Shown here piece by piece: positions 4,313 to 42,700 of a DNA stretch of 64,000 nucleotides. The position numbers and the translations under genes are program-made. The notes beneath the pieces are model-generated. The model did no database searches. It was not told the DNA's origin and saw only the letters and a list, made by a program, of their open reading frames with translations. How positions within the stretch are numbered: the first letter of the stretch is position 1; each line of letters begins with the position of its first letter. This DNA is from Panorpa germanica (lineage: Eukaryota > Arthropoda > Insecta > Mecoptera > Panorpidae): positions 33,150 through 97,149 of the forward strand of contig CAVMBN010000128.1 in the NCBI GenBank assembly GCA_963678705.1, given 5' to 3'.

Positions 4313-4330
4313 GGTTATGGTACCCAGATG
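4313..4330 (+). promoter_or_regulatory. Primer-binding site, tRNA-iMet internal type
   Basis: GGTTATGGTACCCAGATG directly follows the 5' LTR. It resembles the site that copia-type elements use to prime from an internal fragment of initiator methionine tRNA. The family comparison is from general knowledge and not from an alignment. Confidence 0.65.
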
Positions 4331-4415
4331 TTTAAAAAAGATTAAATATTGGTTCTGCGTTTCTGTCGTATTATAATTTTTGGCTACCTAAAACTACATA
4401 ATCACATGGTGAACA

Positions 4416-8454: not shown

Positions 8455-8620
8455 ATTTTGTCATATTCAGTAGGCTTTGTTATTAATAAGCTTTTGTATT
8501 TGTGTAATTATTGAAATTATTAAATTGCCTTCAGCACATGGTTTTGTTACTCTTATTATTTTATATATTGATATAAAATATTTAATGATTAATTTGTTGT
8601 CAGTTATTAAAACTACAAAA
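8449..8620 (+). repeat. copia 3' LTR (172 bp)
   Basis: Same length as the 5' LTR with two mismatches. It is followed by ATTAC, the second copy of the target duplication, and then by Helitron sequence that continues in register with copy 2. Confidence 0.93.
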
Positions 8621-11246: not shown

Positions 11247-11530
11247 AAATCCCATTAATGAATTAATCCGAGTGTATTCCAATCTGCACAACATAGTTTT
11301 CAATCATTTTTTTCTGACATGAATTTGAATTACTTAATTCTTATTATTTTTTAAATTTTTATTCTCATTCTGTATGTTTTCATCATCATTCATCATAATA
11401 AAATACTTTTATGCTTCTATCTATATTAATAATGATCTATATTAATAAATATTATTTTGTATCATTGTATTACGTTCATCAAAGCCTAAATTAGTTTAGC
11501 TAAAAGGTAACACGACATTCATTGACTGCT

Positions 11531-14393: not shown

Positions 14394-14798
14394 ATATGTG
14401 TAATGAATAGTTAATCATTTCAATAAATGCTGATTTCATGTCAAACATTTGTTGTCTAATCCTGTCAAATACTGTAACAACTATTCATGTGAGCGTTCAG
14501 AAATTTATTCTTTGTAAAATGTCTCGAAAGTTTAGGTACTGTTATATTTGTTTGTTTTAGACATTTATTTGTGTAAATTATTTATTAATTATTTAATTTT
14601 TAATTTCAGAAAATAATACCTAAGATTTATTGTACAGGTTAACAAAAGTGTAAATGTCTTTTTATAGGTTATCTATAATTTTTCTTGATAAGCTATTCAT
14701 ATGTAGTGGTTAATTACTCTTTCAGCTATTGTCTATGTCTCGAAAGTGGTTTTTTGTGGTTTTATGCGAGTGCACATTCAGTATTAATATTAATAACA

Positions 14799-17700: not shown

Positions 17701-19530
17701 ACGAACTGTTAATGGTATAGTATGCCCCACATTTCGTGCAGCATGTCAAGAGCTGAATTTGCTTGAAAACGATACTCATTGGGACACGACAATCGCTGAA
17801 GCAATTATTTCTGCATCTCCAAGTCAGATACGCACATTATTTGCTATCATCATTTCGACATGCTTCCCACCGAACCCACGTGACCCATGGAACAAATACA
17901 AAGATAATATGTCTGAAGATATTTTACATCGAATTCGCGTCAGCTCAAGAAATTCCGATCTTGAGGTGAATGAGGAAATGCATAACCAGACTTTGCTCTT
18001 GATCGAAGATATGTGTTACCTCATGTGTGGCAGTTTGTTAGTTAGGTTAGGAATGCCAGCGCCAGATCGCGAAATGAATGACGCATTTAATAGAGAATTG
18101 GAACGTGAACGTGAATATGATCCACATGAACTAATCCAATCAGTCCAAACGAATGTACCTCTGTTGAATCCTAAGCAGAGGGAAGTCTATGATACACTGA
18201 TTAATGCAATTGTTGATAGAAATGGCGGCTTATTTTTTTTGGATGCCCCTGGTGGAACTGGGAAGATATTCCTCATGTCATTGATTTTGGCCACTGTTCG
18301 TGCGAGATCCGAAATTGCGGTAGCAATTGCTTCTTCTGGAATAGCGGCCACATTGTTAGACGGATGCCGTACGGTCACTCAGCGTTAAAATTGTCATTAA
18401 ACCTTCAAACTACTGAACAACTGACATGTAACATTTCGAAACATTCCGCAATGGCCAAAGTTTTAGTAGCATCAAAAATCATCATATGAGACGAATGCAC
18501 AATGGCGCACAAACGCGCATTGGAAGCACTAGACCGAACATTAAAAGATCTGCGCAATGACTCGAGATGTTTTGGTGGTGCAATGATTTTATTATCTGGC
18601 GATTTCCGACAAACACTACCAGTCATTCCAAGATATACTGCTGCCGACGAAATAAACGCTTGCCTCAAAGCATCAAATCTATGGCGATATGTAAAGAAAC
18701 TTCAACTGTCTGTAAATATGAGAGTTGCATTGTTGAACGATCTATCTGCTGATGATTTCTCGAAGCACTTGCTGACTATCGGTAATGGCCGTGTTCCTGT
18801 TGACAAATCGAGCGGTTTGATTTCATTTCCTCCAAATGTTTGCAATTTTGAATCATCAAAAGACGAGCTTATCAACAAAGTATTCCTGGATATCATTGCT
18901 AACCACAAAAATACTAAATTGTTAAGTGAGCGAGCAATTTTAGTAGCTAAAAATAAAGATGTAGATTACCTTAATTTTATAATTCAAAATCAAATCGTAG
19001 GTGCTCTGTATTCATTCAAATCTATCGACTGTGTAACAAACGAAGAAGAAACCACTAATTATCCAAGTGAATTTTTAAACTCCTTGGATGTGCCTGGTTT
19101 ACCACCGCACAATTTAAAACTTAAGGTTGGCTCGGTAGTCATCATGCTTAGAAATTTAAACCAACCAAAACTGTGCAATGGAACGCCTTTGGTGATGAAA
19201 AAACTGATGAGCAATGTGATTTACGCGTCGATACTTAAAGGAAAATTTAAAGATGAGAAAGTTCTTATTCCAAGAAATCCGATGATCCCAACGGATATGC
19301 CATTTGAGTTTAAACGAATTCAATTCTCGATTCGTCTTGCCTTCGCCATGACGATCAACAAATCACAGGGCCAATCCTTGACAATTTGTGGCCTCAATTT
19401 TGAAAATGCATGTTTTCCTCATGGTCAATTGTACGTGGCATGCTCACGTGTCGGCAAACCATCTGCTTTATTTGTTCTTGCGCCTGACCAAAAAACAAAG
19501 AATGTCGTTTAGCACAAGAAGCTTGAATGA
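14799..19530 (+). pseudogene. Helitron Rep/helicase pseudogene (copy 2)
   Basis: Start ATG 14799 corresponds to 2491 in copy 1. Exon 1 has a one-base loss near 14853 and a TAA at 15326-15328. Intron 1 is 15407-15550. The exon 2 donor GT is deleted near 16045, though the acceptor at 16206-16207 remains. An 8-bp loss near 16313 shifts exon 3. From about 16322 a long open stretch (to 18388) carries the HUH motif P-H-A-H (16757-16768), the KYIYKYVTKG tyrosine region (~17175-17205) and the helicase Walker A at 18251-18268. Walker A reads GGTGKI, with I where T/S is expected. A one-base loss near 18374, a TGA at 18487-18489 just before the DE of Walker B, and a TAG at 19510-19512 complete the damage. 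Helicase motifs SGDFRQTLPV and TINKSQGQSL are retained (18502-19512). Confidence 0.88.
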
Positions 19531-19814
19531 AAATCCCATTAATGAATTAATCCGAGTGTATTCCAATCTGCACAAGATAGTTTTTAATCATTTTTTTCTG
19601 ACATGAATTTGAATTACTTAATTATTATTATTTTTTTAATTTTTATTCTCATTCTGTATGTTTTCATCATCATTCATAATAATAAAATACTTTTATGCTT
19701 CTATCTATATTAATAAATATCTATATTAATAAATATTATTTTGTATCATTGTATTACGTTCATCAAAGCCTAAATTAGTTCAGCTAAAAGGTAACACGAC
19801 ATTCATTGACTGCT

Positions 19815-22249: not shown

Positions 22250-22520
22250 AGTAGAGGGTTTGTGAGAGTTCTGGAACCTCCCATGGGAGGGAATTTAAGT
22301 ATAGGTAAGCGACGTACGTCCCATGTTATTAGTATAGGAGAATAAATACAAGGTGTCTAAAAAGGGTTGCCAGTATATGAAACATATGAAAATATTGAAA
22401 TAATTGAAGTTTTATGCTTGGAATAGGGTGTTCCAGAATAATATTTATAGGTATATAATTATATGTAATGTTATAATGATGGAATTATAATACACCTACG
22501 TTTCATGTTTTATTTTTTTT
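22250..22520. other. Left terminal segment of the palindrome
   Basis: Unique sequence between the terminus and the 153-bp array, mirrored at about 36436-36706. It contains perfect short palindromes CCTCCCATGGGAGG (22277-22290) and GACGTACGTC (22311-22320). No coding frame is supported. A role in end recognition is only a guess. Confidence 0.7.
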
Positions 22521-24730
22521 TTAGAAATTAAATCCGCCATTTTAACTAAAATTTTTTTACTTTCGTCTTCTAAACGTGTTCTCCTGTTAGGGTGTTGGTA
22601 CTGATGGGGGATAAATTTTTTATCAAAAATGCAATATCTTCAATCGTTTACGAGATATTTAAAGTTTTATTTTTTAGAAATTAAATCCGCCATTTTGACT
22701 AAAATTTTTTTACTTTCGTCTTCTAAACGTGTTCTCCTGTTAGGGTATTGGTACTGATGGGGGATAAATTTTTTATCAAAAATGCAATATCTTCAACCGT
22801 TTACGAGATATTTAAAGTTTTATTTTTTAGAAATTAAATCCGCCATTTTGACTAAAATTTTTTTACTTTCGTCTTCTAATCGTGTTCTCCTGTTAGGGTA
22901 TTGGTACTGATGGGGGATAAATTTTTTATCAAAAATGCAATATCTTCAATCGTTTACGAGATATTTAAAGTTTTATTTTTTAGAAATTAAATCCGCCATT
23001 TTGACTAAAATTTTTTTACTTTCGTCTTCTAATCGTGTTCTCCTGTTAGGGTATTGGTGCTGATGGGGGATAAATTTTTTATCAAAAATGCAATATCTTC
23101 AATCGTTTACGAGATATTTAAAGTTTTATTTTTTAGAAATTAAATCCGCCATTTTGACTAAAATTTTTTTACTTTCGTCTTCTAAACGTGTTCTCCTGTT
23201 AGGGTATTGGTACTGATGGGGGATAAATTTTTTATCAAAAATGCAATATTTTCAATCGTTTACGAGATATTTAAAGTTTTATTTTTTAGAAATTAAATCC
23301 GCCATTTTGACTAAAATTTTTTTACTTTCGTCTTCTAATCGTGTTCTCCTGTTAGGGTATTGGTACTGATGGGGGATAAATTTTTTATCAAAAATGCAAT
23401 ATCTTCAACCGTTTACGAGATATTTAAAGTTTTATTTTTTAGAAATTAAATCCGCCATTTTGACTAAAATTTTTTTACTTTCGTCTTCTAAACGTGTTCT
23501 CCTGTTAGGGTATTGGTACTGATGGGGGATAAATTTTTTATCAAAAATGCAATATCTTCAATCGTTTACGAGATATTTAAAGTTTTATTTTTTAGAAATT
23601 AAATCCGCCATTTTGACTAAAATTTTTTTACTTTCGTCTTCTAATCGTGTTCTCCTGTTAGGGTATTGGTACTGATGGGGGATAAATTTTTTATCAAAAA
23701 TGCAATATCTTCAACCGTTTACGAGATATTTAAAGTTTTATTTTTTAGAAATTAAATCCGCCATTTTGACTAAAATTTTTTTACTTTCGTCTTCTAAACG
23801 TGTTCTCCTGTTAGGGTATTGGTACTGATGGGGGATAAATTTTTTATCAAAAATGCAATATCTTCAATCGTTTACGAGATATTTAAAGTTTTATTTTTTA
23901 GAAATTAAATCCGCCATTTTGACTAAAATTTTTTTACTTTCGTCTTCTAATCGTGTTCTCCTGTTAGGGTATTGGTACTGATGGGGGATAAATTTTTTAT
24001 CAAAAATGCAATATCTTCAACCGTTTACGAGATATTTAAAGTTTTATTTTTTAGAAATTAAATCCGCCATTTTGACTAAAATTTTTTTACTTTCGTCTTC
24101 TAAACGTGTTCTCCTGTTAGGGTATTGGTACTGATGGGGGATAAATTTTTTATCAAAAATGCAATATCTTCAATCGTTTACGAGATATTTAAAGTTTTAT
24201 TTTTTAGAAATTAAATCCGCCATTTTGACTAAAATTTTTTTACTTTCGTCTTCTAAACGTGTTCTCCTGTTAGGGTATTGGTACTGATGGGGGATAAATT
24301 TTTTATCAAAAATGCAATATCTTCAACCGTTTACGAGATATTTAAAGTTTTATTTTTTAGAAATTAAATCCGCCATTTTGACTAAAATTTTTTTACTTTC
24401 GTCTTCTAATCGTGTTCTCCTGTTAGGGTATTGGTACTGATGGGGGATAAATTTTTTATCAAAAATGCAATATCTTCAATCGTTTACGAGATATTTAAAG
24501 TTTTATTTTTTTAGAAATTAAATCCGCCATTTTGACTAAAATTTTTTTACTTTCGTCTTCTAATCGTGTTCTCCTGTTAGGGTATTGGTACTGATGGGGG
24601 ATAAATTTTTTATCAAAAATGCAATATCTTCAATCGTTTACGAGATATTTAAATTTTTTTTATTTTAAAATTGAATCCGCCATTTTGGCTAAATTTTTTT
24701 ACTTATGTCTTGTAAATGTGTTCTTTAAAT
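22521..24730. repeat. 153-bp tandem repeat, 14 units plus a decayed partial (left arm)
   Basis: Units start at TTAGAAATTAAATCCGCC (22521, 22674, ... 24511), with a 153-bp period and one extra T before the last unit. A degenerate partial unit follows at 24656-24730. Each unit contains the inverted motif TCGTTTACGA. Units are nearly identical. They differ at two diagnostic sites (AAACGTG/AATCGTG and CAATCG/CAACCG) that alternate as a 306-bp dimer over units 6-11. Positioned like iterons or a subterminal array, but no function is demonstrated. Confidence 0.92.
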
Positions 24731-24750
24731 ATCATATGGTATTTACAGAA

Positions 24751-24790
24751 ATATACGATGATAGCCGAAGATAGCCGATGATATCCGAAG
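24751..24790. repeat. 10-bp direct repeat, four units
   Basis: ATATACGATG, ATAGCCGAAG, ATAGCCGATG and ATATCCGAAG lie in tandem about 160 bp before the polymerase start codon. The mirror copy is at about 34166-34205. It could be a promoter-proximal element. Confidence 0.6.
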
Positions 24791-24952
24791 ATGCACAAAG
24801 ATTATGGCTTAAATAGATATATTTAACATTTTTTTATTTAATATTGTTGAATGCAGTTGAATGAGAACATCTGTTGAAAAAAGAACTGCAAGTATATAAT
24901 ATTTTTTTTATAATAAGAAGAAAATAATAAGTGTTAAAAAAAGATTTATGAG

Positions 24953-27900
24953 ATGTATACCTGCAAAGAGTGTAATACATTATTTTCAAGATTAGATAAT
25001 CTGAAACGTCATGAAAATGTATCTTGTAATTCAAATAAATTATTGTGTGAATATTGTGGTTTAATATATACAAATATAAGAAATTATACTCATCATTTAT
25101 TGAAAATACATCAAATTGAATTTGAGTGCAATAATAAACGCAAATTGGATGCTGAACCTGAAATATTAAGTAAACGATCCAAAACGGAGTTAATTGAGAG
25201 TTCATTAACTAAAAAGAAAATTACGGATTGGTGTAATGTATGCAAAAGTAATGTGTTAAATAAAAATCTATATAATCATTATAGAAGTAATGAGCATAAA
25301 AGACTAGCAAGTGTAGATGTAGAATGCGATAATGATATACAAAAAATTACTTCAGCATTTAAAAATCGTATTGCGGCATATAGATTACATACTAAGGAAA
25401 TGTTTAACAGTATTAAAGAATACATGATATTTTTTCAAAATAAAGTATTCGTATTATTGGAAAAGTATTTAAAAGAATTTATTACAATTAAAATAAATAT
25501 TGAATTATTTGGTTTATATGTAAAATATAATAAAGATGCGGAGTTATTAATTGATATAAAATCTTTTAACACTAAAAATAAAGTGATTAATAAATCCATG
25601 GATCTAAAGGAAATATATAATAATTTTAGAAATGTTATTGAAATAAAAAGTGAAGAATTTCAAGAACGTGATTCAGGATGGAGTCTTAAGGAAATAATGC
25701 ATTTGGAAATAAATATTAACAGATATAATCCTTTGCGGGGATCATCTTATATTGATTTACCAAAGAAAGTTAAAGATAAAAAGGCTATAGTAAATGTAGT
25801 AAATAATGATCAAGCTTGCTTTATGTGGGCTATAACTTCAGCATTGTATCCAGCATCAAAAGGTATGACTAGAGTTACATCATATCCACATTATTCAAAA
25901 GTACTTAATTCAAATGGTATAGAATTACCGATGAAATTAAAAGATATTAGAACATTTGAGCATAATAATGATATAAGTGTGAATGTATATGGACTTGAAA
26001 ATAATTCCATTGTGGGACCGTTGTATTATACATCTAAGAAGAAGAAACAACATGTTAATTTATTGTATATTGAAGATTTGAGTAATGGACATTATTGTTG
26101 GATTAAAAATATGTCAAGATTAATAAGAAGTCAATTTACTAAGCATAATGGTAAACAATTTTTGTGTGATGGATGCTTTTCATTTTTTAACACAGAAGAT
26201 CAGTTAAATAGACATTTAGAATATGATTGCAATAAGATATATACAATCCTTCCTTCTAAGTATAAGGCTAAAGATAAATTAGGTAATATGAGACCTCAAA
26301 ACATTTTAAAATTTGATAATTATAAGAATAAATTACGCGTTCCATTTGTGATATATGGAGATTTTGAAACATTATTAAAACCCATTAGTACTTGTTATCC
26401 TGATACTAATACATCATTTTCAAATAATATTCAAATTCATGAACCATATTCTTTTGCTTATTATATTAAATGTTCCTTTAATGATTCCTTAAGTAAGTTT
26501 GTTACGTACAGAGGTATTAATTGCGTTAAAGTATTTATTGAAACAATAACTGAAGACGCTAAACAAATTTATAAAATCTTAAATAAAGTGAAACCTTTAA
26601 ATAAATTATCTGATTGGCAACAACAGGAATATGATGAAGCTTCTATTTGCCATATTTGTGAAGGTATCCTCAAAGGTGATAAAGTGTTAGATCATTGTCA
26701 TTTAACTGGTAATTACCGAGGAGCTGCTCATAATCATTGCAATTTAAAATTTACAATTCCAAAGTTTATACCTGTCATATTCCATAACTTAAGTAATTAC
26801 GATAGCCATATAATTGTAAAAGAATTAGGTAATGATAGTGAAAAAATTGAAGTTATTCCAGAAAATAAGGAAAAGTATATATCTTTTACGAAACATATTT
26901 TGGTGGAATCAAAAGTCGATAAAAATGATAAAGTTCATAACTGCTATATTAAACTTAGATTTATTGATTCTTTACGATTTATGCATTCTAGTTTAGAAAC
27001 ACTTGCAAAAAATTTATTATCAGAACAATTTTTCGAATTAAAAAAATTCTATCCGAATGAAAATCATTTCAATTTATTAAAACGTAAAGGTGTATTTCCT
27101 TATGAATATGTAAATAGTAGGGATATGCTTAATGAATCTGAGTTGCCATCTCAAAATAATTTTTATAGCTCACTTAATGGCTGTAATATATCTGATGATG
27201 ATTACAATCATGCCAAAATGGTTTGGTATGCATTTGAAATGAAAACATTGGGGGAATATTCAGACTTATATTTAAAGATCGATGTTCTGTTGTTAACAGA
27301 TATTTTTGAAAATTTTCGAGATGTGTGCTATAAAACATATAATTTAGATCCCTGTCAATATTATACAGCACCAGGACTTTCTTGGGATGCTATGTTAAAG
27401 TATACAAGTATTGAATTAGAACTTTTAACAGATATTGATATGTTACATTTTATTAAAAAAGGTATAAGAGGTGGAATATCACAATGCTCTCACAGACATG
27501 GAATTGCAAATAATAAATATATGTCCAATTATGATTCAAATAAGGATTCTCAATATTTAATGTATTGGGATGCAAATAACTTATATGGTTGGGCTATGAG
27601 TCAATATTTACCACATGAGGGATTTAAATGGTTAGATACATATAAATTACAAACATTTAATGTAGAAGCTATTGAAGATAACTCAGACGTTGGTTATATA
27701 TTAGAAGTCGATTTAAGATATCCTAATTATTTGCACGATGAACACAATGATCTACCTTTCTGTGCCGAAAATATTAAACCACCTAGCATTAAAACAAATG
27801 ACGTTAAATTAATACCAAATCTAAATAACAAGTATAATTATGTGCTTCACTATAGATCGTTAAAGCAATGTCTTAAAAATAATCTGAAAATAGATAAAAT

Positions 27901-28792
27901 TCATAGAATTTTGGAATTTAAACAGTCTGATTGGTTAAAAAGTTATATTGATCTAAATACATTAAAAAGAAAGAACTCTGCAAATGCATTTGAGAAAGAC
28001 TTTTTTAAATTAATGAATAATTCAGTTTATGGTAAAACAATGGAAAATGTAGATAAACGTGTCGATGTAAAGTTAATAACTCATTGGGATAATATAGGAA
28101 AAAAAATGGGTGCTAATACACTTATAAGTAAACCAAACTATCATAGTTGTTCTATATTTCATGAAAACTTAGTTGCTATTCAAATGCAAAAACTTAAGGT
28201 TTTTTATAATAAACCATTGTATTTAGGATTAAGTGTACTTGATATATCAAAAACTTTAATATACGATTTTCATTATGATTTCATCAAAAAAATCTATAAA
28301 GGTAATGCTAAATTGTTGTATACAGATACAGATTCATTAATATATCAAATTAAAACAGATGATATATATGACGATATTAAGTGTAATCTAGATAAATTTG
28401 ATACATCTAATTATCCATTTAATAATGAATTTTCATTACCTTTAATGAACAAAGCTAAATTAGGCTTAATGAAAGATGAATGCGCGGGTAGTATAATTTG
28501 GGAGTTTGTTGGGTTAAGATCAAAAATGTATGCAATTGATATTGAGGGTTCATGCACAGCTAAAGCAAAAGGAATTAAGAAAAATATTGTAAACAAATTC
28601 AATATTAAAGATTATGTAAATTGTTTATCTCAGGATAACATATTATTGATCACAATGAATACCTTTAAATCGATTAAGCATACAATTTATACTCAAATGA
28701 TAAGTAAAGTAGGTCTTAGTGGAAATGATAATAAAAGATATGTATTAACTGATGGTATAAGTACTTTAGCACATGGACATTATAAAATTTAG
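24953..28792 (+). CDS. Family-B DNA polymerase (DNA_pol_B_2, protein-primed type), intact
   Basis: 1279 aa with no introns, start ATG 24953 (MYTCKEC). Visible modules: zinc fingers at residues 4-25 (C2HC) and 32-53 (C2H2); a third finger at ~91-116; a region with DQACFMWAITSALYP...HVNLL...HYCWIKNM (~285-382) that looks like a cysteine-protease fold; and another C2H2 at ~402-425. Exonuclease I DFETL is at ~467, followed by an HNH/endonuclease VII-like insert (CHIC...DHCHLTG...RG...HNHCN, ~566-600). ExoII NLSNYDSH is at ~612 and ExoIII YLKIDVLLLTD at ~772. The linker motif IRGGIS, motif A DANNLYG (~873), motif B KLMNNSVYGK (~1020) and motif C YTDTDS (1123-1128) follow. All polymerase catalytic carboxylates are present. 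Probable role: replication of this element. It is mirrored by a broken copy in the right arm. Confidence 0.88.
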   Translation: MYTCKECNTLFSRLDNLKRHENVSCNSNKLLCEYCGLIYTNIRNYTHHLLKIHQIEFECNNKRKLDAEPEILSKRSKTELIESSLTKKKITDWCNVCKSNVLNKNLYNHYRSNEHKRLASVDVECDNDIQKITSAFKNRIAAYRLHTKEMFNSIKEYMIFFQNKVFVLLEKYLKEFITIKINIELFGLYVKYNKDAELLIDIKSFNTKNKVINKSMDLKEIYNNFRNVIEIKSEEFQERDSGWSLKEIMHLEININRYNPLRGSSYIDLPKKVKDKKAIVNVVNNDQACFMWAITSALYPASKGMTRVTSYPHYSKVLNSNGIELPMKLKDIRTFEHNNDISVNVYGLENNSIVGPLYYTSKKKKQHVNLLYIEDLSNGHYCWIKNMSRLIRSQFTKHNGKQFLCDGCFSFFNTEDQLNRHLEYDCNKIYTILPSKYKAKDKLGNMRPQNILKFDNYKNKLRVPFVIYGDFETLLKPISTCYPDTNTSFSNNIQIHEPYSFAYYIKCSFNDSLSKFVTYRGINCVKVFIETITEDAKQIYKILNKVKPLNKLSDWQQQEYDEASICHICEGILKGDKVLDHCHLTGNYRGAAHNHCNLKFTIPKFIPVIFHNLSNYDSHIIVKELGNDSEKIEVIPENKEKYISFTKHILVESKVDKNDKVHNCYIKLRFIDSLRFMHSSLETLAKNLLSEQFFELKKFYPNENHFNLLKRKGVFPYEYVNSRDMLNESELPSQNNFYSSLNGCNISDDDYNHAKMVWYAFEMKTLGEYSDLYLKIDVLLLTDIFENFRDVCYKTYNLDPCQYYTAPGLSWDAMLKYTSIELELLTDIDMLHFIKKGIRGGISQCSHRHGIANNKYMSNYDSNKDSQYLMYWDANNLYGWAMSQYLPHEGFKWLDTYKLQTFNVEAIEDNSDVGYILEVDLRYPNYLHDEHNDLPFCAENIKPPSIKTNDVKLIPNLNNKYNYVLHYRSLKQCLKNNLKIDKIHRILEFKQSDWLKSYIDLNTLKRKNSANAFEKDFFKLMNNSVYGKTMENVDKRVDVKLITHWDNIGKKMGANTLISKPNYHSCSIFHENLVAIQMQKLKVFYNKPLYLGLSVLDISKTLIYDFHYDFIKKIYKGNAKLLYTDTDSLIYQIKTDDIYDDIKCNLDKFDTSNYPFNNEFSLPLMNKAKLGLMKDECAGSIIWEFVGLRSKMYAIDIEGSCTAKAKGIKKNIVNKFNIKDYVNCLSQDNILLITMNTFKSIKHTIYTQMISKVGLSGNDNKRYVLTDGISTLAHGHYKI

Positions 28793-29244
28793 TACTAATT
28801 TTAAGTTATGTTTAAGTTTTGTATAAATTTATATCTGTTTTAGTTAAGATAATTAAAATGTATATTTATATAACAATTGAAAAATAGCATATTTGTAAAT
28901 AAATAATAATATATAAACACAAACCATTGAGTTTTATTATTATAAGATTTAATGTTTTAATACATCCATATAAAATAAGATACACATATTTTATTAGTAA
29001 TGTTTTGTTATATATAATTCTTATATGATTAACACTGGTCATAAGAGCTCTAATATATATGCATAAACATATTAATGTATGAGTATGCGTACATAAACTG
29101 GATGACAATTGTATACGTTATATGCAGGAGCAGTACCCAAATCAATTCATTAGTGAATGCAGGCATGTCAAAAAAACCAATATTTCATTTCTTATTATCA
29201 TACCAACGTAATGGGAATGTAACTTGGAATATTGGAATAGTGGT
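28793..29244. other. AT-rich 3' region of the left-arm polymerase gene
   Basis: Non-coding AT-rich DNA between the polymerase stop and the GC-rich patch. A candidate polyadenylation signal AATAAA lies near 28899-28904. A minus-strand open frame of 80 codons (28866-29108) looks like chance, as it is hydrophobic, AT-driven and has no family features. Confidence 0.55.
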
Positions 29245-29370
29245 GTAGGTTAGGTTACACACCCGCGGAGCGAGATTTAGTTTAGAGCCCAAACCCAGGC
29301 CCAGACCCCTACCCGGGCCACCCCACCCGGGTCCGCACCAGGACCCCCCGCCCCAATCTGTACCCCGTAA
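29245..29370. other. GC-rich patch near the palindrome centre (left)
   Basis: An abrupt switch to C-rich sequence (CCCAGGCCCAGACCCCTACC, ACCCCACCCGGG, GGACCCCCCGCCCC) in otherwise AT-rich DNA. It is preceded by GTAGGTTAGGTTAC, which holds two TTAGG-like steps. The mirror copy is at 29597-29722. Confidence 0.75.
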
Positions 29371-29377
29371 ATAGTTC

Positions 29378-29589
29378 GAACGTAACTTGAACGTAATGGG
29401 AACGTAACTTGAACGTAACTTGAACGTAACTTGAACGTAACTTGAACGGAATTCTAAAATAAATACTCTACGTTCAAGTTACGTTCAACTTGAACGTAGA
29501 GTATTTATTTTAGAATTCCGTTCAAGTTACGTTCAAGTTACGTTCAAGTTACGTTCCCATTACGTTCCCATTACGTTCAAGTTACGTTC
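29378..29589. repeat. Palindrome centre: 11-bp repeats and hairpin loop
   Basis: The left array 29378-29448 has six and a half units of GAACGTAACTT, the second being GAACGTAATGG. The right array 29519-29589 is its mirror, except that one further unit carries the ATGG variant (three substitutions). Between them is a perfect inverted repeat: AATTCTAAAATAAATACTC then TACGTTCAAGTT on the left, loop ACGTTC (29481-29486), and the mirror on the right. Single strands would fold back with a 6-nt loop. Confidence 0.9.
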
Positions 29590-30174
29590 GAACTATTTAC
29601 GGGGTACAGATTGGGGCGGGGGGTCCTGGTGCGGACCCGGGTGGGGTGGCCCGGGTAGGGGTCTGGGCCTGGGTTTGGGCTCTAAACTAAATCTCGCTCC
29701 GCGGGTGTGTAACCTAACCTACACCACTATTCCAATATTCCAAGTTACATTCCCATTACGTTGGTATGATAATAAGAAATGAAATATTGGTTTTTTTGAC
29801 ATGCCTGCATTCACTAATGAATTGATTTGGGTACTGCTCCTGCATATAACGTATACAATTGTCATCCAGTTTATGTACGCATACTCATACATTAATATGT
29901 TTATGCATATATATTAGAGCTCTTATGACCAGTGTTAATCATATAAGAATTATATATAACAAAACATTACTAATAAAATATGTGTATCTTATTTTATATG
30001 GATGTATTAAAACATTAAATCTTATAATAATAAAACTCAATGGTTTGTGTTTATATATTATTATTTATTTACAAATATGCTATTTTTCAATTGTTATATA
30101 AATATACATTTTAATTATCTTAACTAAAACAGATATAAATTTATACAAAACTTAAACATAACTTAAAATTAGTA
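29590..30174. other. Right-arm mirror of the GC patch and polymerase 3' region
   Basis: Reverse complement of 28793-29377, with no differences noticed by eye. It contains the mirror GC-rich patch (29597-29722) and the AT-rich tail. No supported gene; the 80-codon frame 29859-30101 is the mirror of the chance frame in the left arm. Confidence 0.7.
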
Positions 30175-33100
30175 CTAAATTTTATAATGTCCATGTGCTA
30201 AAGTACTTATACCATCAGTTAATACATATCTTTTATTATCATTTCCACTAAGACCTACTTTACTTATCATTTGAGTATAAATTGTATGCTTAATCGATTT
30301 AAAGGTATTCATTGTGATCAATAATATGTTATCCTGAGATAAACAATTTACATAATCTTTAATATTGAATTTGTTTACAATATTTTTCTTAATTCCTTTT
30401 GCTTTAGCTGTGCATGAACCCTCAATATCAATTGCATACATTTTTGATCTTAACCCAACAAACTCCCAAATTATACTACCCGCGCATTCATCTTTCATTA
30501 AGCCTAATTTAGCTTTGTTCATTAAAGGTAATGAAAATTCATTATTAAATGGATAATTAGATGTATCAAATTTATCTAGATTACACTTAATATCGTCATA
30601 TATATCATCTGTTTTAATTTGATATATTAATGAATCTGTATCTGTATACAACAATTTAGCATTACCTTTATAGATTTTTTTGATGAAATCATAATGAAAA
30701 TCGTATATTAAAGTTTTTGATATATCAAGTACACTTAATCCTAAATACAATGGTTTATTATAAAAAACCTTAAGTTTTTGCATTTGAATAGCAACTAAGT
30801 TTTCATGAAATATAGAACAACTATGATAGTTTGGTTTACTTATAAGTGTATTAGCACCCATTTTTTTTCCTATATTATCCCAATGAGTTATTAACTTTAC
30901 ATCGACACGTTTATCTACATTTTCCATTGTTTTACCATAAACTGAATTATTCATTAATTTAAAAAAGTCTTTCTCAAATGCATTTGCAGAGTTCTTTCTT
31001 TTTAATGTATTTAGATCAATATAACTTTTTAACCAATCAGACTGTTTAAATTCCAAAATTCTATGAATTTTATCTATTTTCAGATTATTTTTAAGACATT
31101 GCTTTAACGATCTATAGTGAAGCACATAATTATACTTGTTATTTAGATTTGGTATTAATTTAACGTCATTTGTTTTAATGCTAGGTGGTTTAATATTTTC
31201 GGCACAGAAAGGTAGATCATTGTGTTCATCGTGCAAATAATTAGGATATCTTAAATCGACTTCTAATATATAACCAACGTCTGAGTTATCTTCAATAGCT
31301 TCTACATTAAATGTTTGTAATTTATATGTATCTAACCATTTAAATCCCTCATGTGGTAAATATTGACTCATAGCCCAACCATATAAGTTATTTGCATCCC
31401 AATACATTAAATATTGAGAATCCTTATTTGAATCATAATTGGACATATATTTATTATTTGCAATTCCATGTCTGTGAGAGCATTGTGATATTCCACCTCT
31501 TATACCTTTTTTAATAAAATGTAACATATCAATATCTGTTAAAAGTTCTAATTCAATACTTGTATACTTTAACATAGCATCCCAAGAAAGTCCTGGTGCT
31601 GTATAATATTGACAGGGATCTAAATTATATGTTTTATAGCACACATCTCGAAAATTTTCAAAAATATCTGTTAACAACAGAACATCGATCTTTAAATATA
31701 AGTCTGAATATTCCCCCAATGTTTTCATTTCAAATGCATACCAAACCATTTTGGCATGATTGTAATCATCATCAGATATATTACAGCCATTAAGTGAGCT
31801 ATAAAAATTATTTTGAGATGGCAACTCAGATTCATTAAGCATATCCCTACTATTTACATATTCATAAGGAAATACACCTTTACGTTTTAATAAATTGAAA
31901 TGATTTTCATTCGGATAGAATTTTTTTAATTCGAAAAATTGTTCTGATAATAAATTTTTTGCAAGTGTTTCTAAACTAGAATGCATAAATCGTAAAGAAT
32001 CAATAAATCTAAGTTTAATATAGCAGTTATGAACTTTATCATTTTTATCGACTTTTGATTCCACCAAAATATGTTTCGTAAAAGATATATACTTTTCCTT
32101 ATTTTCTGGAATAACTTCAATTTTTTCACTATCATTACCTAATTCTTTTACAATTATATGGCTATCGTAATTACTTAAGTTATGGAATATGACAGGTATA
32201 AACTTTGGAATTGTAAATTTTAAATTGCAATGATTATGAGCAGCTCCTCGGTAATTACCAGTTAAATGACAATGATCTAACACTTTATCACCTTTGAGGA
32301 TACCTTCACAAATATGGCAAATAGAAGCTTCATCATATTCCTGTTGTTGCCAATCAGATAATTTATTTAAAGGTTTCACTTTATTTAAGATTTTATAAAT
32401 TTGTTTAGCGTCTTCAGTTATTGTTTCAATAAATACTTTAACGCAATTAATACCTCTGTACGTAACAAACTTACTTAAGGAATCATTAAAGGAACATTTA
32501 ATATAATAAGCAAAAGAATATGGTTCATGAATTTGAATATTATTTGAAAATGATGTATTAGTATCAGGATAACAAGTACTAATGGGTTTTAATAATGTTT
32601 CAAAATCTCCATATATCACAAATGGAACGCGTAATTTATTCTTATAATTATCAAATTTTAAAATGTTTTGAGGTCTCATATTACCTAATTTATCTTTAGC
32701 CTTATACTTAGAAGGAAGGATTGTATATATCTTATTGCAATCATATTCTAAATGTCTATTTAACTGATCTTCTGTGTTAAAAAATGAAAAGCATCCATCA
32801 CACAAAAATTGTTTACCATTATGCTTAGTAAATTGACTTCTACATATTTTTAATCCAACAATAATGTCCATTACTCAAATCTTCAATATACAATAAATTA
32901 ACATGTTGTTTCTTCTTCTTAGATGTATAATACAACGGTCCCACAATGGAATTATTTTCAAGTCCATATACATTCACACTTATATCATTATTATGCTCAA
33001 ATGTTCTAATATCTTTTAATTTCATCGGTAATTCTATACCATTTGAATTAAGTACTTTTGAATAATGTGGATATGATGTAACTCTAGTCATACCTTTTGA

Positions 33101-34003
33101 TGCTGGATACAATGCTGAAGTTATAGCCCACATAAAGCAAGCTTGATCATTATTTACTACATTTACTATAGCCTTTTTATCTTTAACTTTCTTTGGTAAA
33201 TCAATATAAGATGATCCCCGCAAAGGATTATATCTGTTAATATTTATTTCCAAATGCATTATTTCCTTAAGACTCCATCCTGAATCACGTTCTTGAAATT
33301 CTTCACTTTTTATTTCAATAACATTTCTAAAATTATTATATATTTCCTTTAGATCCATGGATTTATTAATCACTTTATTTTTAGTGTTAAAAGATTTTAT
33401 ATCAATTAATAACTCCGCATCTTTATTATATTTTACATATAAACCAAATAATTCAATATTTATTTTAATTGTAATAAATTCTTTTAAATACTTTTCCAAT
33501 AATACGAATACTTTATTTTGAAAAAATATCATGTATTCTTTAATACTGTTAAACATTTCCTTAGTATGTAATCTATATGCCGCAATACGATTTTTAAATG
33601 CTGAAGTAATTTTTTGTATATCATTATCGCATTCTACATCTACACTTGCTAGTCTTTTATGCTCATTACTTCTATAATGATTATATAGATTTTTATTTAA
33701 CACATTACTTTTGCATACATTACACCAATCCGTAATTTTCTTTTTAGTTAATGAACTCTCAATTAACTCCGTTTTGGATCGTTTACTTAATATTTCAGGT
33801 TCAGCATCCAATTTGCGTTTATTATTGCACTCAAATTCAATTTGATGTATTTTCAATAAATGATGAGTATAATTTCTTATATTTGTATATATTAAACCAC
33901 AATATTCACACAATAATTTATTTGAATTACAAGATACATTTTCATGACGTTTCAGATTATCTAATCTTGAAAATAATGTATTACACTCTTTGCAGGTATA
34001 CAT
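30175..34003 (-). pseudogene. Family-B DNA polymerase, right-arm copy, frameshifted
   Basis: Mirror of the intact left-arm gene. An 11-bp deletion at 32840/32841 (left-arm bases 26115-26125 are missing) shifts the frame just after HYCWIKNM. This leaves an N-terminal frame of 387 codons (34003 down to 32840) holding the zinc fingers and the protease-like region. A second frame of 898 codons (32871 down to 30175) holds the ExoI-ExoIII, HNH-like insert and polymerase motifs A-C. The second frame has its own ATG at 32871, so a polymerase lacking the N-terminal domains could in principle be made. No other lesion was seen. Confidence 0.88.
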
Positions 34004-34225
34004 CTCATAAATCTTTTTTTAACACTTATTATTTTCTTCTTATTATAAAAAAAATATTATATACTTGCAGTTCTTTTTTCAACAGATGTTCTCATTCAAC
34101 TGCATTCAACAATATTAAATAAAAAAATGTTAAATATATCTATTTAAGCCATAATCTTTGTGCATCTTCGGATATCATCGGCTATCTTCGGCTATCATCG
34201 TATATTTCTGTAAATACCATATGAT

Positions 34226-36435
34226 ATTTAAAGAACACATTTACAAGACATAAGTAAAAAAATTTAGCCAAAATGGCGGATTCAATTTTAAAATAAAAAA
34301 AATTTAAATATCTCGTAAACGATTGAAGATATTGCATTTTTGATAAAAAATTTATCCCCCATCAGTACCAATACCCTAACAGGAGAACACGATTAGAAGA
34401 CGAAAGTAAAAAAATTTTAGTCAAAATGGCGGATTTAATTTCTAAAAAAATAAAACTTTAAATATCTCGTAAACGATTGAAGATATTGCATTTTTGATAA
34501 AAAATTTATCCCCCATCAGTACCAATACCCTAACAGGAGAACACGATTAGAAGACGAAAGTAAAAAAATTTTAGTCAAAATGGCGGATTTAATTTCTAAA
34601 AAATAAAACTTTAAATATCTCGTAAACGGTTGAAGATATTGCATTTTTGATAAAAAATTTATCCCCCATCAGTACCAATACCCTAACAGGAGAACACGTT
34701 TAGAAGACGAAAGTAAAAAAATTTTAGTCAAAATGGCGGATTTAATTTCTAAAAAATAAAACTTTAAATATCTCGTAAACGATTGAAGATATTGCATTTT
34801 TGATAAAAAATTTATCCCCCATCAGTACCAATACCCTAACAGGAGAACACGTTTAGAAGACGAAAGTAAAAAAATTTTAGTCAAAATGGCGGATTTAATT
34901 TCTAAAAAATAAAACTTTAAATATCTCGTAAACGGTTGAAGATATTGCATTTTTGATAAAAAATTTATCCCCCATCAGTACCAATACCCTAACAGGAGAA
35001 CACGATTAGAAGACGAAAGTAAAAAAATTTTAGTCAAAATGGCGGATTTAATTTCTAAAAAATAAAACTTTAAATATCTCGTAAACGATTGAAGATATTG
35101 CATTTTTGATAAAAAATTTATCCCCCATCAGTACCAATACCCTAACAGGAGAACACGTTTAGAAGACGAAAGTAAAAAAATTTTAGTCAAAATGGCGGAT
35201 TTAATTTCTAAAAAATAAAACTTTAAATATCTCGTAAACGGTTGAAGATATTGCATTTTTGATAAAAAATTTATCCCCCATCAGTACCAATACCCTAACA
35301 GGAGAACACGATTAGAAGACGAAAGTAAAAAAATTTTAGTCAAAATGGCGGATTTAATTTCTAAAAAATAAAACTTTAAATATCTCGTAAACGATTGAAG
35401 ATATTGCATTTTTGATAAAAAATTTATCCCCCATCAGTACCAATACCCTAACAGGAGAACACGTTTAGAAGACGAAAGTAAAAAAATTTTAGTCAAAATG
35501 GCGGATTTAATTTCTAAAAAATAAAACTTTAAATATCTCGTAAACGGTTGAAGATATTGCATTTTTGATAAAAAATTTATCCCCCATCAGTACCAATACC
35601 CTAACAGGAGAACACGATTAGAAGACGAAAGTAAAAAAATTTTAGTCAAAATGGCGGATTTAATTTCTAAAAAATAAAACTTTAAATATCTCGTAAACGA
35701 TTGAAAATATTGCATTTTTGATAAAAAATTTATCCCCCATCAGTACCAATACCCTAACAGGAGAACACGTTTAGAAGACGAAAGTAAAAAAATTTTAGTC
35801 AAAATGGCGGATTTAATTTCTAAAAAATAAAACTTTAAATATCTCGTAAACGATTGAAGATATTGCATTTTTGATAAAAAATTTATCCCCCATCAGCACC
35901 AATACCCTAACAGGAGAACACGATTAGAAGACGAAAGTAAAAAAATTTTAGTCAAAATGGCGGATTTAATTTCTAAAAAATAAAACTTTAAATATCTCGT
36001 AAACGATTGAAGATATTGCATTTTTGATAAAAAATTTATCCCCCATCAGTACCAATACCCTAACAGGAGAACACGATTAGAAGACGAAAGTAAAAAAATT
36101 TTAGTCAAAATGGCGGATTTAATTTCTAAAAAATAAAACTTTAAATATCTCGTAAACGGTTGAAGATATTGCATTTTTGATAAAAAATTTATCCCCCATC
36201 AGTACCAATACCCTAACAGGAGAACACGTTTAGAAGACGAAAGTAAAAAAATTTTAGTCAAAATGGCGGATTTAATTTCTAAAAAATAAAACTTTAAATA
36301 TCTCGTAAACGATTGAAGATATTGCATTTTTGATAAAAAATTTATCCCCCATCAGTACCAACACCCTAACAGGAGAACACGTTTAGAAGACGAAAGTAAA
36401 AAAATTTTAGTTAAAATGGCGGATTTAATTTCTAA
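34226..36435. repeat. 153-bp tandem repeat, right-arm mirror
   Basis: Reverse-complement copy of 22521-24730 with the same unit order. The single-unit variants match across arms: CAGCACC at ~35894-35900 against GGTGCTG at ~23056, and GAAAATATTGC at ~35703 against GCAATATTTTC at ~23243. The whole array was therefore duplicated as a block rather than expanded twice. Confidence 0.92.
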
Positions 36436-36706
36436 AAAAAAAATAAAACATGAAACGTAGGTGTATTATAATTCCATCATTATAACATTACATATAATTA
36501 TATACCTATAAATATTATTCTGGAACACCCTATTCCAAGCATAAAACTTCAATTATTTCAATATTTTCATATGTTTCATATACTGGCAACCCTTTTTAGA
36601 CACCTTGTATTTATTCTCCTATACTAATAACATGGGACGTACGTCGCTTACCTATACTTAAATTCCCTCCCATGGGAGGTTCCAGAACTCTCACAAACCC
36701 TCTACT
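36436..36706. other. Right terminal segment of the palindrome
   Basis: Mirror of 22250-22520, ending CCCTCTACT at 36706. A reading frame in phase with the zinc-finger array is open back to 36631 (stop TAA at 36628-36630) but has no ATG. Confidence 0.7.
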
Positions 36707-39700
36707 CAAGGTCTTTAAAGGAACATAAAAACACGCATCTAAACGTTAAGCCTTTTTCATGTGACATTTGTAAAAAAACATTTTCAAGTTCAGGCCATTT
36801 CAGTCAACATAAAAAGACGCATTTAGACGTTAATCCTTTTTCATGTGACATTTGTAACAAAATGTTTTCCTGTTCAAGCTCTTTAAAGGAACATAAAAAG
36901 ACGCATTTAGATGTTCATCCTTTTTTATGTGACATTTGTGACAAAACGTTTTCATGTTCAAGGTCTTTAAAGGAACATAAAAACACGCATCTAAACGTTA
37001 AGCCTTTTTCATGTGACATTTGTAAAAAAACATTTTCAAGTTCAGGCCATTTCAGTCAACATAAAAAGACGCATTTAGACGTTAATCCTTTTTCATGTGA
37101 CATTTGTAACAAAATGTTTTCCTGTTCAAGCTCTTTAAAGGAACATAAAAAGACGCATTTAGATGTTCATCCTTTTTTATGTGACATTTGTGACAAAACG
37201 TTTTCATGTTCAAGGTCTTTAAAGGAACATAAAAACACGCATCTAAACGTTAAGCCTTTTTCATGTGACATTTGTAAAAAAACATTTTCAAGTTCAGGCC
37301 ATTTCAGTCAACATAAAAAGACGCATTTAGACGTTAATCCTTTTTCATGTGACATTTGTAACAAAATGTTTTCCTGTTCAAGCTCTTTAAAGGAACATAA
37401 AAAGACGCATTTAGATGTTCATCCTTTTTTATGTGACATTTGTGACAAAACGTTTTCATGTTCAAGGTCTTTAAAGGAACATAAAAACACGCATCTAAAC
37501 GTTAAGCCTTTTTCATGTGACATTTGTAAAAAAACATTTTCAAGTTCAGGCCATTTCAGTCAACATAAAAAGACGCATTTAGACGTTAATCCTTTTTCAT
37601 GTGACATTTGTAACAAAATGTTTTCCTGTTCAAGCTCTTTAAAGGAACATAAAAAGACGCATTTAGATGTTCATCCTTTTTTATGTGACATTTGTGACAA
37701 AACGTTTTCATGTTCAAGGTCTTTAAAGGAACATAAAAACACGCATCTAAACGTTAAGCCTTTTTCATGTGACATTTGTAAAAAAACATTTTCAAGTTCA
37801 GGCCATTTCAGTCAACATAAAAAGACGCATTTAGACGTTAATCCTTTTTCATGTGACATTTGTAACAAAATGTTTTCCTGTTCAAGCTCTTTAAAGGAAC
37901 ATAAAAAGACGCATTTAGACGTTAATCCTTTTTCATGTGACATTTGTAACAAAATGTTTTCCTGTTCAAGCTCTTTAAAGGAACATAAAAAGACGCATTT
38001 AGATGTTCATCCTTTTTTATGTGACATTTGTGACAAAACGTTTTCATGTTCAAGGTCTTTAAAGGAACATAAAAACACGCATCTAAACGTTAAGCCTTTT
38101 TCATGTGACATTTGTAAAAAAACATTTTCAAGTTCAGGCCATTTCAGTCAACATAAAAAGACGCATTTAGACGTTAATCCTTTTTCATGTGACATTTGTA
38201 ACAAAATGTTTTCCTGTTCAAGCTCTTTAAAGGAACATAAAAAGACGCATTTAGATGTTCATCCTTTTTTATGTGACATTTGTGACAAAACGTTTTCATG
38301 TTCAAGGTCTTTAAAGGAACATAAAAACACGCATCTAAACGTTAAGCCTTTTTCATGTGACATTTGTAAAAAAACATTTTCAAGTTCAGGCCATTTCAGT
38401 CAACATAAAAAGACGCATTTAGACGTTAATCCTTTTTCATGTGACATTTGTAACAAAATGTTTTCCTGTTCAAGCTCTTTAAAGGAACATAAAAAGACGC
38501 ATTTAGATGTTCATCCTTTTTTATGTGACATTTGTGACAAAACGTTTTCATGTTCAAGGTCTTTAAAGGAACATAAAAACACGCATCTAAACGTTAAGCC
38601 TTTTTCATGTGACATTTGTAAAAAAACATTTTCAAGTTCAGGCCATTTCAGTCAACATAAAAAGACGCATTTAGACGTTAATCCTTTTTCATGTGACATT
38701 TGTAACAAAATGTTTTCCTGTTCAAGCTCTTTAAAGGAACATAAAAAGACGCATTTAGACGTTAATCCCTTTTTATGTGACATTTGTAACAAAACGTTTT
38801 TAAGTTCAAGGTCTTTAAAGGAACATAAAAAGACGCATTTAGATGTTCATCCTTTTTTATGTGACATTTGTGACAAAACGTTTTCATGTTCAAGGTCTTT
38901 AAAGGAACATAAAAACACGCATCTAAACGTTAAGCCTTTTTCATGTGACATTTGTAAAAAAACATTTTCAAGTTCAGGCCATTTCAGTCAACATAAAAAG
39001 ACGCATTTAGACGTTAATCCTTTTTCATGTGACATTTGTAACAAAATGTTTTCCTGTTCAAGCTCTTTAAAGGAACATAAAAAGACGCATTTAGATGTTC
39101 ATCCTTTTTTATGTGACATTTGTGACAAAACGTTTTCATGTTCAAGGTCTTTAAAGGAACATAAAAACACGCATCTAAACGTTAAGCCTTTTTCATGTGA
39201 CATTTGTAAAAAAACATTTTCAAGTTCAGGCCATTTCAGTCAACATAAAAAGACGCATTTAGACGTTAATCCTTTTTCATGTGACATTTGTAACAAAATG
39301 TTTTCCTGTTCAAGCTCTTTAAAGGAACATAAAAAGACGCATTTAGACGTTAATCCTTTTTCATGTGACATTTGTAACAAAATGTTTTCCTGTTCAAGCT
39401 CTTTAAAGGAACATAAAAAGACGCATTTAGATGTTCATCCTTTTTTATGTGACATTTGTGACAAAACGTTTTCATGTTCAAGGTCTTTAAAGGAACATAA
39501 AAACACGCATCTAAACGTTAAGCCTTTTTCATGTGACATTTGTAAAAAAACATTTTCAAGTTCAGGCCATTTCAGTCAACATAAAAAGACGCATTTAGAC
39601 GTTAATCCTTTTTCATGTGACATTTGTAACAAAATGTTTTCCTGTTCAAGCTCTTTAAAGGAACATAAAAAGACGCATTTAGATGTTCATCCTTTTTTAT

Positions 39701-42700
39701 GTGACATTTGTGACAAAACGTTTTCATGTTCAAGGTCTTTAAAGGAACATAAAAACACGCATCTAAACGTTAAGCCTTTTTCATGTGACATTTGTAAAAA
39801 AACATTTTCAAGTTCAGGCCATTTCAGTCAACATAAAAAGACGCATTTAGACGTTAATCCTTTTTCATGTGACATTTGTAACAAAATGTTTTCCTGTTCA
39901 AGCTCTTTAAAGGAACATAAAAAGACGCATTTAGATGTTCATCCTTTTTTATGTGACATTTGTGACAAAACGTTTTCATGTTCAAGGTCTTTAAAGGAAC
40001 ATAAAAACACGCATCTAAACGTTAAGCCTTTTTCATGTGACATTTGTAAAAAAACATTTTCAAGTTCAGGCCATTTCAGTCAACATAAAAAGACGCATTT
40101 AGACGTTAATCCTTTTTCATGTGACATTTGTAACAAAATGTTTTCCTGTTCAAGCTCTTTAAAGGAACATAAAAAGACGCATTTAGACGTTAATCCCTTT
40201 TTATGTGACATTTGTAACAAAACGTTTTTAAGTTCAAGGTCTTTAAAGGAACATAAAAAGACGCATTTAGATGTTCATCCTTTTTTATGTGACATTTGTG
40301 ACAAAACGTTTTCATGTTCAAGGTCTTTAAAGGAACATAAAAACACGCATCTAAACGTTAAGCCTTTTTCATGTGATATTTGTAAAAAAACATTTTCAAG
40401 TTCAGGCCATTTCAGTCAACATAAAAAGACGCATTTAGACGTTAATCCTTTTTCATGTGACATTTGTAACAAAATGTTTTCCTGTTCAAGCTCTTTAAAG
40501 GAACATAAAAAGACGCATTTAGATGTTCATCCTTTTTTATGTGACATTTGTGACAAAACGTTTTCATGTTCAAGGTCTTTAAAGGAACATAAAAACACGC
40601 ATCTAAACGTTAAGCCTTTTTCATGTGACATTTGTAAAAAAACATTTTCAAGTTCAGGCCATTTCAGTCAACATAAAAAGACGCATTTAGACGTTAATCC
40701 TTTTTCATGTGACATTTGTAACAAAATGTTTTCCTGTTCAAGCTCTTTAAAGGAACATAAAAAGACGCATTTAGACGTTAATCCTTTTTCATGTGACATT
40801 TGTAACAAAATGTTTTCCTGTTCAAGCTCTTTAAAGGAACATAAAAAGACGCATTTAGATGTTCATCCTTTTTTATGTGACATTTGTGACAAAACGTTTT
40901 CATGTTCAAGGTCTTTAAAGGAACATAAAAACACGCATCTAAACGTTAAGCCTTTTTCATGTGACATTTGTAAAAAAACATTTTCAAGTTCAGGCCATTT
41001 CAGTCAACATAAAAAGACGCATTTAGACGTTAATCCTTTTTCATGTGACATTTGTAACAAAATGTTTTCCTGTTCAAGCTCTTTAAAGGAACATAAAAAG
41101 ACGCATTTAGATGTTCATCCTTTTTTATGTGACATTTGTGACAAAACGTTTTCATGTTCAAGGTCTTTAAAGGAACATAAAAACACGCATCTAAACGTTA
41201 AGCCTTTTTCATGTGACATTTGTAAAAAAACATTTTCAAGTTCAGGCCATTTCAGTCAACATAAAAAGACGCATTTAGACGTTAATCCTTTTTCATGTGA
41301 CATTTGTAACAAAATGTTTTCCTGTTCAAGCTCTTTAAAGGAACATAAAAAGACGCATTTAGATGTTCATCCTTTTTTATGTGACATTTGTGACAAAACG
41401 TTTTCATGTTCAAGGTCTTTAAAGGAACATAAAAACACGCATCTAAACGTTAAGCCTTTTTCATGTGACATTTGTAAAAAAACATTTTCAAGTTCAGGCC
41501 ATTTCAGTCAACATAAAAAGACGCATTTAGACGTTAATCCTTTTTCATGTGACATTTGTAACAAAATGTTTTCCTGTTCAAGCTCTTTAAAGGAACATAA
41601 AAAGACGCATTTAGATGTTCATCCTTTTTCATGTGACATTTGTAACAAAACGTTTTCAAGTTCAGGCCATTTCAGTCAACATAAAAAGACGCATTTAGAC
41701 GTTAATCCTTTTTCATGTGACATTTGTAACAAAATGTTTTCCTGTTCAAGCTCTTTAAAGGAACATAAAAAGACGCATTTAGATGTTCATCCTTTTTCAT
41801 GTGACATTTGTAAAAAAACATTTTCAAGTTCAGGCCATTTCAGTCAACATAAAAAGACGCATTTAGACGTTAATCCTTTTTCATGTGACATTTGTAACAA
41901 AATGTTTTCCTGTTCAAGCTCTTTAAAGGAACATAAAAAGACGCATTTAGATGTTCATCCTTTTTTATGTGACATTTGTGACAAAACGTTTTCATGTTCA
42001 AGGTCTTTAAAGGAACATAAAAACACGCATCTAAACGTTAAGCCTTTTTCATGTGACATTTGTAAAAAAACATTTTCAAGTTCAGGCCATTTCAGTCAAC
42101 ATAAAAAGACGCATTTAGACGTTAATCCTTTTTCATGTGACATTTGTAACAAAATGTTTTCCTGTTCAAGCTCTTTAAAGGAACATAAAAAGACGCATTT
42201 AGATGTTCATCCTTTTTTATGTGACATTTGTGACAAAACGTTTTCATGTTCAAGGTCTTTAAAGGAACATAAAAACACGCATCTAAACGTTAAGCCTTTT
42301 TCATGTGACATTTGTAAAAAAACATTTTCAAGTTCAGGCCATTTCAGTCAACATAAAAAGACGCATTTAGACGTTAATCCTTTTTCATGTGACATTTGTA
42401 ACAAAATGTTTTCCTGTTCAAGCTCTTTAAAGGAACATAAAAAGACGCATTTAGACGTTAATCCTTTTTCATGTGACATTTGTAACAAAATGTTTTCCTG
42501 TTCAAGCTCTTTAAAGGAACATAAAAAGACGCATTTAGATGTTCATCCTTTTTTATGTGACATTTGTGACAAAACGTTTTCATGTTCAAGGTCTTTAAAG
42601 GAACATAAAAACACGCATCTAAACGTTAAGCCTTTTTCATGTGACATTTGTAAAAAAACATTTTCAAGTTCAGGCCATTTCAGTCAACATAAAAAGACGC

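Follow-up and report, generated by a model that had tools for sequence, protein, structure and literature searches.

A palindromic PolB-only transposon family, best read as a Maverick derivative, in Panorpa germanica

Closest described systems and the palindrome in the window

Mavericks (Polintons; adintoviruses) are thought to replicate by protein priming and, to our knowledge, none of their replication intermediates has been seen so far. In adenoviruses, fold-back copying of the end of a linear replicon gives inverted dimers known as symmetric recombinants. The snap-back defective genomes of AAV are inverted dimers that arise in the same way, as described in PMC8235507. Foldback elements are transposons whose very long inverted repeats abound in tandem arrays. 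According to PMC8097293, the Mavericks of vertebrates end in AGT or AG repeats, are flanked by 6-bp duplications and carry inverted repeats of 46-1447 bp. PMC8363768 gives Vesanto virus possibly up to 12 segments whose terminal repeats are similar, with PolB homologues on separate segments.

The window, meaning the whole 64,000-nucleotide stretch of P. germanica DNA analysed (source assembly of 464 Mb in 249 contigs), contains a palindrome of 14.5 kb at 22250-36706 which, in self-comparison of the window, is almost its own mirror image. The earlier note had called it its own reverse complement; this holds for the 7.2-kb inverted arms, except for an 11-bp deletion in the right arm and three base differences. 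The left arm (22250-29480, + strand) and its inverted copy, the right arm (29487-36706, - strand), flank a 6-nt loop at 29481-29486, of the size given in that note. Inverted-repeat comparison gives the blocks 22250-26114/32842-36706 and 26126-29480/29487-32841, with 11 bp (26115-26125, + strand) in the left arm only, and the three mismatched bases lie within the central 11-bp repeats (29408-29410 versus 29557-29559). A chance origin of such a near-exact 7.2-kb inverted repeat is far out of reach. From the outer end inward, each arm consists of 263 unrepeated bp, a tandem array of 14.5 units of 153 bp (22513-24724, + strand; 34232-36443, - strand), a PolB gene reading toward the centre, and 11-bp tandem repeats at the axis (29378-29448, + strand; 29519-29589, - strand), which bear out the 11-bp centre of the earlier note. 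The left terminus AGTAGA (22250-22255, + strand) fits the reported Maverick end motif (AGT)2 at five of six bases and is mirrored by TCTACT at the right terminus (36701-36706, - strand). The left flank of this copy is an AT repeat, and on its right lies an array spanning 27 kb, whose 84-bp units read as C2H2 zinc fingers. Neighbouring frames in the window, read by eye, are Copia-like and Helitron-like. A mitochondrial origin, first suggested by ORF lengths, was dropped in view of these neighbours, and no tRNA was found.

The intact PolB gene (24953-28792, + strand) encodes 1279 aa with zinc fingers, terminal-protein-like (TP-like), vOTU-like, exonuclease and polymerase domains and a weak endonuclease VII match. 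Because the 11 bp of 26115-26125 are missing there, the right-arm copy is frameshifted, and its first part (32840-34003, - strand) is followed by a second part in another frame (30175-32871, - strand). The TP-vOTU-PolB layout supports a predicted polymerase of the protein-primed type, in keeping with the hallmarks noted earlier, and named relatives come from insects, e.g. Episyrphus, Cylas, Leptinotarsa and Planococcus. PolB also appears to be the only gene, as had been proposed: the window's arm has no other open stretch of more than 124 residues, and six-frame Pfam scans of it gave no credible family match outside PolB. Neither an rve integrase frame nor capsid proteins, a packaging ATPase or a protease were found in this arm in the ORF list and Pfam scans, nor were parvovirus-type NS1 and VP genes found beside PolB. 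Eleven unrelated Pfam names in the outer non-coding arm, several above cut-off, were rejected since their scores sum over repeated reading of the 153-bp array and no single stretch passes. DUF3634 near the centre (one passing stretch, E 0.005) and a BACK domain in the left flank (E 0.019), both below cut-off, were taken as chance. Among viral contigs, a close search and an exact terminus search gave no match, and of 19 pattern matches none was confirmed by the alignment search.

The palindromic family resembles Mavericks in its PolB, which is of the protein-primed type and includes TP-like and vOTU-like domains, in its mirrored ends of AGT/ACT type and, at the level of the family, in its 6-bp target duplication. 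It differs in that none of the genes for integrase, ATPase, protease and capsid was found, in having one gene in two inverted copies, and in an inverted repeat that comprises the entire arm, against the 46-1447 bp given for vertebrates in PMC8097293. With three defining Maverick features present and three not found (integrase, capsid set, short inverted repeats), the family is filed as a Maverick derivative of new form and not as a Maverick. Bidnaviruses and Vesanto virus likewise carry a PolB of Polinton type on small linear units that have inverted repeats, and separate segments are a further likeness to Vesanto virus. Bidnaviruses, however, carry NS1 and VP, whereas no second gene was found in the palindrome's arm, and the family differs from both in being integrated with a 6-bp duplication and palindromic over its whole length. 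Foldback elements are alike in their very long, array-rich inverted repeats but differ in end motif and duplication, and we know of no PolB in them. The dimers of AAV and adenovirus are by-products of replication, in contrast to the integrated family of inverted dimers described here. Linear plasmids with a terminal protein (invertrons, kalilo type) also combine PolB and inverted ends in a minimal replicon; the palindromic family, by contrast, is nuclear, integrated and present in many copies, with Maverick-type ends and no second gene found. The undescribed class of invertron-like element suggested at first is not upheld as worded: the ends and 6-bp duplications are as reported for Mavericks in PMC8097293, so that descent from Mavericks describes the family better than a class of its own among invertrons. 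In the titles and abstract openings of the literature searched, a body lying outside most subscription papers, no palindromic PolB-only Maverick appeared.

Copies of the family, identity of arms and the central axis

Searching the genome with the arm's first 1001 bases gave 155 matches from the best 40 of 102 candidates, many within arrays, and the full-length matches stand mostly as facing pairs. The 251-base terminus aligned over positions 1-251 at 39 of the best 40 scored places (62 candidates) and over 4-251 at one. As these matches start at base 1, and once at base 4, the AGT/ACT ends are the ends of the element, as the earlier note had defined them. Besides the window copy, ten further elements were fetched as outer stretches (elements are numbered with an E below). 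All ten agree over the 20 bases of the left end and nine of them over the 20 bases of the right end, E11 being one base off; the ends read AGTAGA in the window copy and AGTAGT on contig C111. All ten carry PolB sequence inverted in both arms, the stretch fetched covering part of the right-arm PolB in E11, and one arm each of E5 and E11 contains an insertion. Tail-to-tail inverted dimers with these ends thus exist at other loci, a point raised in the earlier note, and none of the ten runs past the ends or lacks the palindrome, the cases named there as refuting. A polymerase search of the genome (best 36 of 3302 candidates) gave at least 14 tail-to-tail pairs among 37 rows, the remaining rows being arms alone in that list (five with stops) or arms whose partner is broken. 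These observations support the view that the family is usually integrated as a palindromic dimer. The family is young, and the window copy is best read as one of many copies of a transposon that descends from Mavericks (Polintons).

Arms resemble each other far more within elements than between them. PolB substitutions between arms, counted in the nine elements with two comparable arms (E5 and E11 were dropped, one arm being interrupted), number 0 in E1, E4, E6, E7 and E8, 1 in E2 and E9, 4 in E10 and 28 in E3. The outer half of the E3 right arm is that of another subfamily, and E3 looks like a chimera. Summed arm differences are 34 with E3 and 6 without it, against permutation means of 261 and 241, and none of 100,000 permutations reached so low a sum in either case. 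Among private bases in eight elements, 35 are common to both arms and 6 occur in one arm. The nearest other element lies at 26 differences from E6 (0 between its own arms), 6 from E7 (0), 10-12 from E10 (4), 3-4 from E2 (1) and 2 from E4 (0), while E1, E8 and E9 add little to this test, as near-identical relatives exist. The distance from end to PolB also matches within elements (15 of 100,000 permutations as close; nine elements, E3 and E11 left out), and the number of 153-bp units differs between arms by four in E5 and by one in E7 and E10. Since arms are near-identical within elements while lineages have diverged, one arm was probably rewritten repeatedly from the other, and judging from the sequences this could have occurred either before or after insertion. 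PolB is open over its full length in both arms of eight of nine elements (two with in-frame length changes), which suggests selection for the protein or a very recent spread.

The centres carry a second kind of trace. A single spacer of about 23 bases lies between inverted 11-bp arrays in eight of 13 centres, and in E12 it is partly doubled in tandem. In the other four (E1-E4, the window copy among them), the spacer occurs twice, inverted, with a new axis inside the repeats; in the window copy its left copy lies at 29449-29471 (+ strand) and the inverted second copy around the displaced axis at 29496-29518 (- strand). The doubled spacer would be the footprint of a fold-back in which the growing strand runs beyond the spacer, turns back at the 11-bp repeats and re-copies the first arm, and the displaced axis is the most direct sign of mechanism in this analysis. 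As E1-E4 are close relatives of one lineage, it speaks for re-copying of an arm at least once and not in every cycle. The fold-back copying proposed in the earlier note is thus backed by a footprint in four of 13 centres, although these may record one single event.

The explanation that we regard as probable, taken as a whole, is a Maverick-derived PolB-only family that persists as a snap-back dimer, with its arms equalised and its integrase supplied in trans. The best reading is of a non-autonomous Maverick derivative that would copy itself and use a helper for integration. PolB would start copying at the AGT ends by means of its own N-terminal terminal-protein domain, and the displaced 14-kb strand would snap back into a 7-kb hairpin with a restored double-stranded end. 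The arms could be made alike again through mismatch repair of this hairpin or when copying folds back and switches template within the central 11-bp repeats, and the rve integrase of a resident Maverick would then insert the product in trans.

Alternatively, the family could be a non-autonomous transposon of ordinary kind whose inverted repeats are very long. The palindrome would then have formed once and would move unchanged, chromosomal gene conversion would equalise the arms, and PolB would have no present role. Gene conversion between arms is known in other large palindromes, and the one architecture common to the copies read fits a single origin. The open PolB in both arms of most elements, pointing to selection or very recent spread, sits poorly with this account, and the doubled spacers require at least one re-copying of an arm, so that it is judged unlikely beside the snap-back reading.

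The resident Maverick and a second type of palindrome

A source for the integrase may be found in the same genome. A distant PolB (46.7% identity over 1086 positions) is present in two copies that stand alone among the matches listed, and within 5 kb beyond one of them lie an rve integrase with a chromodomain match below the Pfam cut-off, a 305-aa protein, a Pox_A32-type ATPase, a phospholipase A2-type protein and a Ulp1-type protease just at its cut-off. A small palindrome of 6.0 kb (C6:21933673), flanked by a 6-bp target duplication, has the arrays of the PolB family and nearly the same ends. Its gene, one per arm and presumably DUF8207, is related to the 305-aa protein (38% over 122 aa, E 5e-19). 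A search with the first part of this gene drew no relative from 305 candidates, although in direct comparison that part does match the 305-aa Maverick ORF. The second part is 95-100% identical at the best 150 of 354 candidate places, its own four arms included, and most of these places have long open frames; in the single such place that was read, two pieces of matching DNA show 97.4% and 98.7% identity, with an rve integrase adjoining. A high-copy Maverick family, with a predicted integrase at least at the place read, is thus present in the genome, and its DNA appears to have recombined with the palindromic family not long ago. Together these make the high-copy Maverick the likely, though inferred, source of the integrase.

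At least two palindromic types with shared ends, the PolB type and the small Maverick-gene type, therefore occur among the best-scored candidates. Perhaps they belong to a two-part system, in which the palindrome would be a self-copying replicon that gives polymerase in trans, the Maverick would give integrase and capsid, and snap-back would rebuild the dimer in each cycle; this is a speculative extension that we consider doubtful. Still less probable is a multipartite virus segment, i.e. palindromic single-gene segments with common ends that travel with Mavericks in the manner of the bidna-like Vesanto virus. The PolB type and the Maverick-gene type, with their common ends and 153-bp arrays, would suit such an arrangement, and Vesanto virus, with perhaps up to 12 segments and PolB homologues on separate ones (PMC8363768), offers a precedent. 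The small type, however, is present in at least two copies, the two found, with an in-frame stop within the gene in all four arms read, and looks like an accidental capture, and no segment with an integrase or capsid was found among the best-scored candidates.

Integration and significance

The majority of the copies read are complete inverted dimers bracketed by 6-bp target duplications. A perfect 6-bp target duplication flanks eight of the ten fetched elements, with E3 and E4 lacking it, as does the window copy. Eight further end pairs were read, six with a perfect duplication. C233 was scored as none, and by eye the same six bases are present past altered last end bases; a second copy of the small element adjoins the centre of a PolB arm and has no duplication. 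In total, 14 of 18 elements with paired ends have a perfect 6-bp duplication, with the window copy counted, the small type left out and C111 counted by its ends, its interior lying outside the reading. Recombination or false joining of near-identical copies would account for the duplications missing from the window copy, E3 and E4, and the mixed arm of E3 suggests as much; the flanks of the window copy are possibly a join between two real copies. On the other side, the small contigs C59, C111 and C181 keep perfect duplications. An assembly artefact, in which one strand was read twice and joined as a false palindrome, would fit the three copies without duplication, the short contigs of E3 and E4 (105 and 133 kb) and contig C5, which seems to stop inside a copy, but it is very improbable given palindromic copies with perfect duplications on both sides within contigs of 15-31 Mb, the duplications on those small contigs, and private arm differences such as one-arm deletions and insertions.

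A family integrated as complete snap-back dimers, with arms evolving in concert and a trace of fold-back copying at the axis, would amount to a record, kept in the genome, of Maverick replication intermediates. It would suggest that a thriving replicon needs no gene of its own but PolB, given an integrase in trans, and would connect transposons, linear plasmids and segmented PolB viruses by a simple route. If no conversion follows insertion, the divergence of the two arms could date each insertion, as it does for long terminal repeats.

Small palindromes carrying a Maverick gene

The second palindromic type, which carries a Maverick gene (hereafter the small gene) in place of PolB, is found in two copies. 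The first, L029 (C6:21933673-21939667; 6.0 kb), has nearly the same ends as the PolB palindrome as well as the same 153-bp tandem arrays, is flanked by a 6-bp duplication, and contains one small gene in each of its two arms. Frames resembling a LINE reverse transcriptase adjoin this copy. In the second, L037 (C1:14441218-14447768), the right end lies directly against the 11-bp central repeats of a PolB arm, and the two thus form a composite element. The small gene is interrupted by a stop at the identical place in all four arms read from the two elements.

Surroundings of the PolB palindromes

Directly at the right end of the PolB palindrome in the window begins a 27-kb tandem array of about 325 84-bp units (36709-64000), which continues beyond the window edge and includes an open frame of 5658 codons (36862-53838); read by eye, its units resemble C2H2 zinc fingers. 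Two Helitron-like copies (2377-11322 and 14685-19606), likewise recognized by eye, closely resemble one another. A 130-bp triple repeat lies ahead of both copies, and the first copy appears to be split by Copia-like frames (4527-8454). Elsewhere, the 24.8-Mb contig C5 seemingly terminates within a PolB palindrome (24787672-24800094), which suggests that palindromes of this family break assemblies.

An abundant Maverick family

DNA related to the small gene also occurs in a high-copy Maverick family, where, at L060 (C5:19203700-19205700), an integrase frame adjoins the gene. This Maverick family is very abundant and young: 150 places scored among 354 candidates gave matches of 95-100%.
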